64,000 nt of DNA from Sphingobacterium sp. CZ-2 (GTDB taxonomy: Bacteria > Bacteroidota > Bacteroidia > Sphingobacteriales > Sphingobacteriaceae), in assembly GCF_004526235.1 (NCBI RefSeq), contig NZ_CP038159.1:496001-560000 (forward strand), written 5' to 3'. This document shows, piece after piece, positions 56,542 through 59,893 of this stretch. The position numbers and the translations under genes were made by a program. Within the stretch, counting starts at the first letter, position 1. The number at the start of each line of letters is the position of its first letter. Under the pieces are notes generated by a model. The model did not search any database. It had not been told where the DNA came from and was given only the letters and a program-made list of their open reading frames with translations.

Positions 56542-57582
56542 TTAGAATCCCACCGACTTCAAATTCAAGCCGGCTCTTTCATCCAAGCCAAACATCAAGT
56601 TCATGTTCTGAACAGCTTGGCCGGATGCGCCTTTCAGCAAGTTATCCGTTGCGTTTAAGATCAATAATTTATTGCCATGCTTCTCCAGATGCATGATACT
56701 CTTATTGGTATTCACGACCTGTTTCAGGTCAATGTTAGCTTTTGAAACATGTGTAAATGGATGCGTTGCATAAAAATCCTCATACAACTCATAGGCTTCT
56801 TCCTCTGAAAGATCAACATCTACATAAATAGCAGAGAAAATTCCTCTTGCAAAATCTCCGCGCTGCGGAATAAAATTAATCCTACTTGCTGCACGTTCTA
56901 ACAAAGAACCTTCAGCAGCTGCCAATGGCCCATCACCTTCCGGTAAAAAGCCAGGCTGCAATTGATCAAGTGATTCCGAGATCTCCTGCAGATGTTGGTG
57001 TTCAAAAGATTTATAGGCTGAAAGGTTGTTGTTCCTCCAGGAGAAATGGGTGGTTGCCGATGGCTTCTGCCCAGCTCCAGTAGAACCCGTTGTGGCATTC
57101 ACATGGATCTCACCTTTCAATAATCCTTTTGAAGCCAATGGCAATAATGCCAATTGGATATTGGTCGCAAAGCAACCCGGATTAGCAATGTATTGAGCCG
57201 ATTTTATCGCTTCCTTATTCAATTCCGGCAAACCATACACAAACTGTGCGCCTTGATAAGCCGTATTTGCCCGTAAGCGGTAATCCTGAGAAAGATCAAT
57301 GATCTTTACCCTTGGATCCACGGGATTCGCATCCAAGAACTTCTTGGCATCTCCATGGCCCACACAAAGGAACAGAACATCCACATCACTGTGAAAATCG
57401 GACGAGAAGGTCAATTCCGTATCGCCAAAAAGATCGTTATGAACATCGGCCAATTTATTGCCGGCATTCGAAGCCGAATTGGCAAATACGATATCCACCT
57501 GTGGATGGAATATCAAAATACGCAGGAGTTCTCCTCCCGTATATCCTGCCGAACCAATAATTCCTACCCTGATCTTTTCCAT
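56542..57582 (-). CDS. argC: N-acetyl-gamma-glutamyl-phosphate reductase
   Basis: 346 residues, NADPH-dependent reductase of arginine synthesis. N-terminal Rossmann motif GSAGYTGGELLR; catalytic cysteine C137 in NPGCFATN; later STGSTGAG-like ATTGSTGAGQKPS. Last gene of a minus-strand unit after the GNAT and argG genes (43-base gap). In some Bacteroidota the pathway runs through N-succinyl intermediates, which cannot be decided here. Confidence 0.95.
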   Translation of the reverse strand: MEKIRVGIIGSAGYTGGELLRILIFHPQVDIVFANSASNAGNKLADVHNDLFGDTELTFSSDFHSDVDVLFLCVGHGDAKKFLDANPVDPRVKIIDLSQDYRLRANTAYQGAQFVYGLPELNKEAIKSAQYIANPGCFATNIQLALLPLASKGLLKGEIHVNATTGSTGAGQKPSATTHFSWRNNNLSAYKSFEHQHLQEISESLDQLQPGFLPEGDGPLAAAEGSLLERAASRINFIPQRGDFARGIFSAIYVDVDLSEEEAYELYEDFYATHPFTHVSKANIDLKQVVNTNKSIMHLEKHGNKLLILNATDNLLKGASGQAVQNMNLMFGLDERAGLNLKSVGF

Positions 57583-57625: not shown

Positions 57626-58813
57626 TTATCCTTTGCTGTTTACTTTATGCCAAATGATGGTTTGGTTACCAAAAATCTTGGAGAACCCCTTCACATCATC
57701 ACCAGTATATCCTTTATTCATTTCCCCATAGCTACCGAATTTATTGGACATCAGATCATGCTCCGATTCGATACCCAAAATAACAAAGCGGTAAGGGTGT
57801 AATTCTACAAAAACACGACCTGTTACCGTTTCTTGAGAACTTTGCAAGAAAGCCTCCATATCACGCATTACCGGATCATGCATTTGGCCTTCATGCATAT
57901 AATTTCCATAAAAACCAGCCAATTGATCTTTCCAAGACAATTGCCATTTGGTCAAGGTATGTTTTTCTAAAGTATGATGCGCTTTGATCAAGATCAATGG
58001 ACCAGCAGCCTCAAATCCTACACGGCCTTTGATACCGATAATGGTATCTCCAACGTGGATATCGCGGCCGATTCCATAAGGTTGAGCCAAAGCCTGTAAT
58101 TCTTGGATCACTTTTACAGCGCCAATTTTATTGCCATTCAAACCTACAGGCTCACCTTTTTCAAAGTCGATACTTACCTGCATTGGCTCGGTTGAAGTAA
58201 CAGGGGTTGGCCATGCCGCATCTGGTAGGTATTGGTTGGAGGTCAATGTCTCCGCACCTCCTACAGATGTACCCCACAAGCCTTTATTAATAGAATATTT
58301 TGCCTTTTCTGCCGAATATTCCACACCATGCTTATTCAAATATTCAATTTCATCCTCGCGAGATAACTGAAGATCACGGATTGGCGTGATGATCTCCACT
58401 CCAGGAATCAAGGTCTGGAAGATCATATCAAAACGTACCTGATCATTTCCTGCTCCGGTTGAACCGTGAGCCACACATTCAGCACCGATCTTCTTCGCGT
58501 AATTGGCAATTGCTGTTGCCTGGCTAACACGCTCGGCAGACACCGAAAGTGGATAGGTCGCATTCTTCAGTACATTACCAAAAATAAGATACTTAATCGT
58601 TCCACGGTAATAGTCTTCAGTTTCATCAATGGTCGTATGGGATTTCACGCCTAACTCGTACGCCCTATTTTCAATTGTCTTTAATTCCTCATCCGAAAAA
58701 CCACCGGTATTAACGATGACAGAATGAACTTCCAAACCTAGGTCACGAGAAAGATAGATACAACAGAAGGAAGTATCCAACCCACCACTAAATGCTAAAA
58801 CTACTTTTTTCAT
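57626..58813 (-). CDS. argG: Argininosuccinate synthase
   Basis: 395 residues. The ATP PP-loop motif SGGLDTS is at 9-15, with VAHGSTGAGNDQVRF and the citrulline-binding LWGTSVGGAETLTS further on. It joins citrulline and aspartate with ATP. Second gene of the arginine unit, 41 bases after the GNAT gene. Confidence 0.96.
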   Translation of the reverse strand: MKKVVLAFSGGLDTSFCCIYLSRDLGLEVHSVIVNTGGFSDEELKTIENRAYELGVKSHTTIDETEDYYRGTIKYLIFGNVLKNATYPLSVSAERVSQATAIANYAKKIGAECVAHGSTGAGNDQVRFDMIFQTLIPGVEIITPIRDLQLSREDEIEYLNKHGVEYSAEKAKYSINKGLWGTSVGGAETLTSNQYLPDAAWPTPVTSTEPMQVSIDFEKGEPVGLNGNKIGAVKVIQELQALAQPYGIGRDIHVGDTIIGIKGRVGFEAAGPLILIKAHHTLEKHTLTKWQLSWKDQLAGFYGNYMHEGQMHDPVMRDMEAFLQSSQETVTGRVFVELHPYRFVILGIESEHDLMSNKFGSYGEMNKGYTGDDVKGFSKIFGNQTIIWHKVNSKG

Positions 58814-58854: not shown

Positions 58855-59571
58855 TTAAAAACCTTTTACAGGTTTAACGCCTACCGGAAACACCGTTGCT
58901 ACCATTTTTTTGGTAGACTTCCATAGCTTCGCTTCAATGCGTTTCAATAAAGACTGTTTCTTGGAGATACGGTCCAAACGTTCTTTAGCTTCCGCTTTAC
59001 GCTGGATCTTTTCCTTGAGCTCTTTTTCTTTTTCCACTGGATCCCAAAGCATGGCGGTACACATGCAGTTCTTACGGTCCTTCGCCATCAGAATATCGTA
59101 ATTCACACAAGATTGACATCCTTTCCAGAATTCTTCATCTTGGGTCAATTCCGAATAGGTCACCGGTTCGTATCCCAGGTCCGAGTTGATTTTCATGACT
59201 GCCAATCCGGTAGTCAGACCAAAGATCTTGGCCTTCGGATATTTTTCATGCGATAATTCAAAGACCCTTTTCTTGATGGCTTTTGCAAGACCCACCTTTC
59301 GGAAAATAGGATTGACGATCAGGCCAGAGTTGGCCACATAGTCCCCATGGCTCCAGGTCTCGATATAACAGAAACCTGCCCAAGTACCGTCCTTGTGCAA
59401 AGCGATCACTGCCTTCCCTTCCTCCATCTTTCTGGCCACGTATTCGGGTTTACGACGTGCAATACCTGTACCACGAGCCTTTGCAGACTCAAACATTTCG
59501 TCACAGATAACCTCAGCATAACCAATATGATCTGCTGTAGCGGGAATAATCAAAAAATCTGAAAGTGTCAT
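58855..59571 (-). CDS. GNAT-family acetyltransferase of the arginine operon
   Basis: 238 residues. GNAT fold with an acetyl-CoA loop region in NPIFRKVGLAKAIKKR (about 88-104). A cysteine cluster (CQSCVN and NCMCT, about residues 153-172) is unusual and could bind metal. The C-terminal about 55 residues are highly charged and probably a coiled coil. Its place as first gene before argG and argC suggests it makes N-acetylglutamate, the first arginine precursor, as an alternative to ArgA or ArgJ; this is inference from context. A long structured leader precedes it. Confidence 0.85.
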   Translation of the reverse strand: MTLSDFLIIPATADHIGYAEVICDEMFESAKARGTGIARRKPEYVARKMEEGKAVIALHKDGTWAGFCYIETWSHGDYVANSGLIVNPIFRKVGLAKAIKKRVFELSHEKYPKAKIFGLTTGLAVMKINSDLGYEPVTYSELTQDEEFWKGCQSCVNYDILMAKDRKNCMCTAMLWDPVEKEKELKEKIQRKAEAKERLDRISKKQSLLKRIEAKLWKSTKKMVATVFPVGVKPVKGF

Positions 59572-59581
59572 TTAAATTTAT

Positions 59582-59788
59582 CGACCTAAAATGTAAATAC
59601 CGAAGTATTTGGATTATCTAATCTTACTCTAACCATCTTCCATCGAGCTTGATGGAAAATCAATATGGGAAATTTGCCTGCCTCGTAAATCAAGCTCGAG
59701 GCAGAATAGGTCGTCGGAATCGAAGTATTGGACAATTAAATGATCGAACATGCACATAGGACACCTGAACAAGCTTGTAGAAAGCTTG
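59582..59788 (-). promoter_or_regulatory. Candidate structured RNA leader of the arginine operon
   Basis: On the minus strand, CGACCUA (59713-59707) can pair with UAGGUCG (59588-59582), 10 bases before the AUG. It encloses three hairpins: CUGCCUCG/CGAGGCAG (59704-59678), UUCCAUC/GAUGGAA (59657-59638) and AAAUAC-UUCG-GUAUUU (59609-59594). The first loop region GAGCUUGAU (59697-59689) is the exact complement of AUCAAGCUC (59653-59645) spanning the second loop, so they may kiss or form an alternative helix. Upstream is a fourth hairpin, CAAGCUU/AAGCUUG (59788-59770). The class is not recognised. Confidence 0.55.
59721..59733. repeat. Direct repeat partner in the arginine leader
   Basis: CGAAGTATTGGA (59721-59732) repeats CGAAGTATTTGGA (59601-59613) with one base fewer, exactly 120 bases apart. 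The first copy forms part of the UUCG hairpin on the minus strand. Confidence 0.6.
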
Positions 59789-59859
59789 GCCAAATAATCC
59801 CAAAAATGTTCTGTTACAAATCATCTTCTTATCGTTTTATATCCTGTGATCAGACTGCG

Positions 59860-59893
59860 CAAAAGTAAACAATTATTTTTTTCTTTTATGCAA
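59860..59893 (-). promoter_or_regulatory. Promoter of the arginine operon
   Basis: Minus-strand TACTTTTG (59867-59860), an exact TAnnTTTG match, with TTG (59893-59891) 23 bases upstream. It would give a leader of about 280 bases before the GNAT start codon. The rest of the gene-free stretch 59868-60010 is AT-rich with no other structure seen. Confidence 0.6.

Follow-up and report, generated by a model that had tools for sequence, protein, structure and literature searches.

The leader of the GNAT-argG-argC operon of Sphingobacterium sp. CZ-2 (59571-59850 on the minus strand of the window, the 64,000-nt stretch of DNA analysed here) is probably a ribosome-sensing attenuator, that is, a leader-peptide control of the arginine operon in which ribosomes would stall at a tandem pair of CGA codons and whose output would be mainly translational. 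Most likely it is the ribosome, as it translates, that acts as the sensor. The leader encodes a conserved 44-codon open reading frame (ORF), and translation of this leader peptide very probably controls the RNA fold at the operon start, by which the cell would register a lack of arginine via its ribosomes. On comparative grounds, the finding extends from this one leader to a family of leaders across several Bacteroidota families.

The operon and its promoter

The operon opens with a gene for a GNAT-like acetyltransferase (58855..59571, minus strand), which is followed on the same strand by argG, encoding argininosuccinate synthase (57626..58813; TIGR00032 over cutoff), and argC, encoding N-acetyl-gamma-glutamyl-phosphate reductase (56542..57582; TIGR01850 over cutoff). 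This arrangement is widely kept, argG lying within 400 nt of the GNAT gene on the same strand at 159 of 165 loci. Profile matches of the first gene are weak and fall below every Pfam and NCBIfam cutoff (Acetyltransf_1, E 0.014); its product gives a PDB profile match to the GNAT protein PA4794 at 6e-7. The protein is about 70% identical across the Sphingobacteriaceae, where its gene nearly always adjoins argG, and its C-terminal part, which contains Cys residues, is conserved (CQSCVNYD...KNCMCTAMLW); a second paralogue with 48-52% identity is found in several larger Sphingobacterium genomes (G062, G066, G080, G020 and others). Possibly, the product of the first gene is an unrecognised enzyme of the arginine pathway.

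A search for the C-terminal domain of the arginine repressor ArgR (PF02863) found none in 31 genomes, of which 19 are Sphingobacterium (that of the window plus 18 more) and 12 represent other families of the class; a Bacteroides control genome does have the domain. Another arginine control is thus to be expected in these organisms.

A preliminary description of this region had read a promoter match of the form TTG-N23-TACTTTTG on the minus strand. Such a Bacteroidota-type promoter is present in the sequence (59860..59893, minus strand; TTG at 59893-59891, N23, TACTTTTG at 59867-59860), and all 30 of the 30 same-genus leaders carry a TAnnTTTG box at about the same position. The leader that would follow from it folds at -76 kcal/mol, against a shuffle mean of -61.4 (z -3.05), and beats 200 of 200 dinucleotide shuffles. 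A search of the window's leader region for a terminator-like site found none.

A conserved leader peptide ending in arginine codons

What the preliminary description did not mention is the 44-codon ORF at 59690..59824 (minus strand; MICNRTFLGLFGQAFYKLVQVSYVHVRSFNCPILRFRRPILPRA, stop TGA), the terminal codons of which are the 5' strands of the helices P1 and P2 and of the loop contact described below. The ORF is present in all 92 distinct leaders picked by the motif [LI]RxRRPx[LM]PRA, which come from Sphingobacterium, Parapedobacter and near relatives. It runs for 44 codons from ATG or GTG in 91 of the 92 (ATG 89, GTG 2) and has no internal stop. The first 30 same-genus loci all keep the frame and the C-terminal CPxLR[FL]RRPILPRA, and identical leader peptides occur in named Sphingobacterium records (e.g. 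L092, S. endophyticum).

The pattern of substitutions indicates that the ORF is coding and under purifying selection in its frame. In frame, codons 2-30 have a pairwise pN/pS of 0.50 and codons 31-44 one of 0.20, while codons 2-30 give 1.16 and 0.85 in the two other frames. The N-terminal 30 residues drift, with length, C-terminus and position being kept. Near the proposed stall site, Pro32, Leu34 and Arg35 lie outside every helix and are held as residues across the 92 leaders through varying codons (four for Pro32, six for Leu34, six for Arg35), so that here the conservation of the residue is independent of the codon; for codons 38-43 it is confounded by RNA pairing. RNA structure as the sole cause of peptide conservation is thus insufficient, because codons 32-36 are conserved as residues although outside all helices. 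A small protein without a regulatory role is also unlikely, because of the N-terminal drift, the fixed length, C-terminus and position, and the pairing of the C-terminal codons with downstream RNA. Eight representative leader peptides had no Pfam or NCBIfam match, and an ORF this short, with no family model to fit it, will probably escape annotation.

The last 10 codons hold four arginine codons. The tandem pair CGA-CGA at codons 37-38 (59711..59716, minus strand), which we propose as the stall site, is invariant in 92 of 92 leaders; the arginine codons 35 and 43 vary, the penultimate one (codon 43, 59696..59698, minus strand) being CGA in 58, CGG in 33 and AGA in 1. CGA is the rarest arginine codon in the large ORFs of the window (51 of 615, 8%, in a mechanically derived ORF set). 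Among the tRNAs detected in the organism's own genome, the tRNA-Arg anticodons are ACG (two), CCG, TCT and CCT, and none is tRNA-Arg(UCG) (anticodon TCG), so that the reading of CGA should fall to the ACG (I34) tRNA via inosine wobble. Codon 37 lies outside P1, and pairing thus leaves its invariance unexplained. In-frame CGA-CGA is also found in 67 of 104 arginine-terminal upstream ORFs (uORFs) beyond the 92-leader group, including those of clades that lack P1 (e.g. Mucilaginibacter); Pedobacter leaders have CGG-CAA in its place.

Such a pair has precedents as a slow site in Salmonella, where inserting an Arg-Arg pair with CGA into the his leader leads to strong de-attenuation (PMC4046918) and CGA-CGA has been employed as a slow codon pair (PMC11805395). 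In the Salmonella speF leader, however, rare and frequent arginine codons are equally effective (PMC6386406), and the rarity of CGA is thus not required for arginine sensing there.

Pairing of the terminal codons with the operon start

All helices described here are on the minus strand. The 7-bp closing helix that the preliminary description had placed with its 3' strand ending 10 nt before the AUG is present as P1, in which CGACCTA (59707..59713, codons 38-40) pairs with TAGGTCG (59582..59588), the latter ending 10 nt 5' of the GNAT start codon; this 3' strand ends 6-10 nt before the ATG in 85 of 92 leaders, and relatives show U-A to C-G compensatory changes in the helix. Of the three hairpins that it saw inside the closing helix, one with a UUCG tetraloop, all are likewise there. 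In P2, for which both the fold and relatives speak, CTGCCTCG (59697..59704, codons 41-43) pairs with CGAGGCAG (59678..59685), relatives showing G-C to A-U and U-A to C-G compensatory changes, and the stop codon of the leader ORF sits in its loop. P3 (59635..59660) pairs 59660-59651 with 59644-59635 around the loop AAGCTC (59650-59645), and P4 (59595..59610), read from sequence and fold as AAATAC-UUCG-GUAUUU, carries the tetraloop. The 9-nt complementarity of two loop regions, also noticed before, holds between GAGCTTGAT in the P2 loop (59689..59697) and ATCAAGCTC in P3 (59645..59653); it shows compensatory changes in relatives and could form either a loop-loop contact or an alternative helix.

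Covariation was counted on 42 distinct anchored segments, in which the anchors GGTC, GG[CT][AG] and G[CT][CT]CG are favoured by construction and it is the other positions that carry weight. Pairing holds in 95.5% of the cells when P1, P2 and the loop contact are taken together, and double-sided changes number 42, against 13.8 in shuffled and at most 8 in slid controls. The changes fall on third codon positions: the pair at codon 39 (P1) is U-A in 21 segments and C-G in 12, that at codon 41 (P2) G-C in 36 and A-U in 6, that at codon 42 (P2) U-A in 30 and C-G in 9, and that of codon 43 with the P3 loop A-U in 26, G-C in 14 and G-U in 2 of the 42. On a GNAT tree of 56 loci, the key positions changed 2-4 times each, and the partner nearly always co-changed or did not differ; 2-4 independent changes per pair are too few for a significant sign test. 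From a MAFFT alignment of all 92 full leaders, by contrast, a consensus fold retrieved no more than a 5-pair stretch of P2, because linker lengths differ; hence the use of anchored segments. The compensatory changes thus counted support the pairing of P1, of P2 and between the P2 and P3 loops.

With codons 38-43 forming the 5' strands of P1 and P2, conserved pairing lies beneath the would-be stalled ribosome. Covering codons 37-40 in a folding model moves the fold only part of the way that the proposal below requires: for the P1 3' region the mean unpaired probability goes from 0.25 to 0.36, and for the start region as a whole it is nearly unchanged. Of the leaders examined, only those of Sphingobacterium, Parapedobacter and near relatives have P1.

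Distribution of the leader peptide across Bacteroidota

The same kind of uORF, 33-48 codons long, precedes the GNAT orthologue of other Sphingobacteriaceae, of Myroides and of members of several further families, with C-terminal variants such as RHRRPFMPRV, SRRRPYMPRA, LRRRPLYIPRF, NRQNYTPRI, TPVAYFPRR, RPVFYIRR and SRVTRVRA. When uORFs ending 75-165 nt before the GNAT gene were counted, an ATG-started ORF of 33-48 amino acids with arginine last or second-last was found in 194 of 224 distinct acetyltransferase-argG leaders and in 2 of 224 on the antisense strand; arginine is last or second-last in 196 of the 205 ORFs of the counted size and position. Since the 92-leader set was chosen by motif, the fairer figure is that for the leaders outside it, of which 104 of 132 have an arginine-terminal uORF (1.75 of 132 in shuffles; shuffled motif-set leaders gave 1.3 of 92). 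A chance ORF can be ruled out by the antisense count, by the one or two per group in shuffles and by the in-frame pN/pS.

The exact motif is of narrower distribution. A class-wide draw with the same DNA pattern yielded zero matches outside the genus, so the exact RRP.LPR motif appears to be the form of a narrow clade; a match in genus g19 (L031) was discounted because its reading frame is unrelated. In distant clades the motif has shrunk to an arginine at the last or second-last position, and the leaders without an arginine-terminal uORF are mostly those of the most distant families.

In other genera the uORF persists and P1 and the remaining fold are replaced by other structures. Apparently, then, the kind of leader peptide has been kept in other Bacteroidota and is read out by different RNA structures. 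In the clades with Arg-Arg-stop (L081, L083, L085, L089, L086, L131) an invariant hairpin, GACGC-TGAT-GCGTC, surrounds the leader stop codon, and a second hairpin has the loop TACGC or TACGT and a covarying stem. The genus of L081, L083, L085 and L089 has a nearly invariant leader peptide over all 41 residues (MKKHFLSYVTDMINASKEVVFSTLMSVVFVHPTPVAYFPRR), the N-terminal part of which drifts elsewhere. In L069, L070, L072, L074 and L078, two successive hairpins, of the kind AAAGACT...AGTCTTT and TCCG...CGGATTTT and each followed by a U-run, stand directly before the GNAT start; these hairpin pairs look like a terminator-like read-out in place of P1.

Discussion

The model that we favour, in which the leader works as an attenuator sensed by the ribosome, would operate as follows. 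Ribosomes would translate the 44-codon leader ORF, and with ample arginyl-tRNA a ribosome would reach the stop codon and depart, upon which P1, P2, P3 and the P2-P3 loop contact would fold, burying the region 5' of the GNAT start and keeping the operon low. With scarce arginyl-tRNA, it would stall at CGA-CGA (codons 37-38). By the usual footprint, a ribosome with codon 37 in its A site covers the mRNA to about codon 41, i.e. all of the P1 5' strand. The stalled ribosome would thus cover this strand and, one codon later, P2 as well; P1 would fail to form, the GNAT start would be freed and its translation could begin. argG and argC would follow GNAT via the shared transcript and protection from Rho. 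Because a stall would prevent the closing helix and completion of the ORF would permit it, expression would be higher at low arginyl-tRNA, which is the right sense for a biosynthetic operon. Of this, the comparison of leaders shows the ORF, its selection as coding sequence, the invariance of the tandem codons and the covariation of the helices overlapping the ORF end; that the ORF is translated in vivo, that ribosomes stall on it, which way the switch goes and that it acts on translation rather than transcription we infer.

The closest known parallel is orf34 of Salmonella and E. coli, or SpeFL (PF10940, DUF2618), likewise a short ORF with two consecutive arginine codons and an arginine at its stop (PMC6386406). 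In Salmonella, the two consecutive arginine codons are required for the arginine response, ribosome pausing at low arginine picks an alternative mRNA structure, and the leader sequesters the ribosome-binding site (RBS), all of which is paralleled by our proposal (PMC6386406). The differences are clear, however: orf34 belongs to Gammaproteobacteria, lies upstream of speF (ornithine decarboxylase), is induced by ornithine and has its tandem arginines at codons 12-13 of 34, whereas the Sphingobacterium leader has a different fold and is located 5' of GNAT-argG-argC; eight representative leader peptides matched neither PF10940 nor, at E<=1, any Pfam family. With attenuators of the his/trp type our leader shares an ORF with codons for the end product and a translation rate that would select between RNA structures. 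Unlike in these, the output looks translational (a helix at the start site and no terminator found in the window's leader), there are just four arginine codons in the control region, the ORF is longer and its C-terminal residues are conserved.

Those residues deserve attention, as the conservation of P-x-L-R-[FL]-R-R-P-I-L-P-R-A exceeds what codon sensing alone would need, and an arginine-sensing arrest peptide thus stays the main rival, although we consider it unlikely. Among leader peptides that let the ribosome sense an amino acid are TnaC and the fungal arginine attenuator peptide (AAP), the latter sensing arginine, and in TnaC and SpeFL the nascent chain reacts to its effector inside the exit tunnel, so that the ribosome stalls. 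Our leader resembles TnaC and AAP in having a conserved peptide sequence; an arrest induced by arginine would be hypothetical here. By analogy, nascent PxLR[FL]RRPILPRA would sense arginine (or ornithine or citrulline) in the tunnel and the ribosome would stall or slow at the tandem arginines or at the stop, the RNA fold reading the stall. This could account for the holding of Pro32, Leu34 and Arg35 despite codon variation, for the stop-adjacent arginine, kept as a residue in nearly all clades with its codon free, and for C-termini that remain alike where the RNA differs. However, distant clades keep just the arginine at the last or second-last position, the invariant CGA-CGA indicates decoding, and RNA pairing constrains codons 38-43 and so freezes their residues too. 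There is also a difficulty of logic: AAP represses by stalling at its own stop codon in high arginine, and such a stall here would also break P1 and switch the biosynthetic operon on, the wrong sense unless the read-out differs.

The other alternatives concern what the RNA does. The preliminary description had seen in the leader the features of a ligand-binding regulatory RNA. Comparative evidence upholds it as far as a conserved cis-regulatory leader is concerned, one with several hairpins, a loop-loop contact and a helix closing at the translation start. A metabolite-binding riboswitch with an aptamer built from P1-P4 would fit the closed multi-helix fold, the covarying loop-loop pairing and the position of P1 at the start region, but we regard it as very improbable, since the 5' half of the fold is coding sequence on which selection acts at the amino-acid level and sister genera replace the fold but keep the ORF. 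As to the checks proposed with that description, covariation in the closing helix and hairpins is supported by the compensatory changes in P1 and P2, and a search of Rfam gave no match to the leader at the gathering threshold and no bacterial family at a relaxed one. It is also very improbable that the same leader-peptide sensor acts chiefly on transcription, through Rho or intrinsic termination or mRNA decay, and not by blocking GNAT initiation. In other clades the stretch from the ORF to the GNAT start does contain hairpins with U-runs behind them, and orf34 of Salmonella works through Rho and RNase G besides the RBS (PMC6386406); the window's leader, however, is without a terminator-like site, and P1 ends just upstream of the start codon in most of the 92 leaders, where initiation would be blocked.

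Our literature search found no description of an arginine leader peptide in Bacteroidota, and little on the control of amino-acid synthesis in Bacteroidota other than Bacteroides; since most subscription journals and all preprints were outside its coverage, novelty here means "not found", not "proved". In Flavobacterium psychrophilum there are clues to leader peptides before amino-acid operons, the main text naming neither arginine operons nor the present peptide (PMC9723704), and leader-like small ORFs have been reported in B. thetaiotaomicron (PMC7366714).

Taken together, the breadth of this leader-peptide family offers a concrete and testable arginine control in Bacteroidota. One may even speculate, though we hold it to be rather unlikely, that nascent leader peptides throughout the Bacteroidota detect arginine or a metabolite of its pathway in the ribosome, and not tRNA charging alone, taking the place of the missing ArgR, and that evolution has retained this sensor but exchanged its RNA read-out time and again. 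As far as the attenuator proposed here is concerned, the sensor peptide appears to be kept while the RNA output is replaced between genera, and CGA-CGA would be a naturally conserved stall candidate in bacteria beyond the usual models.
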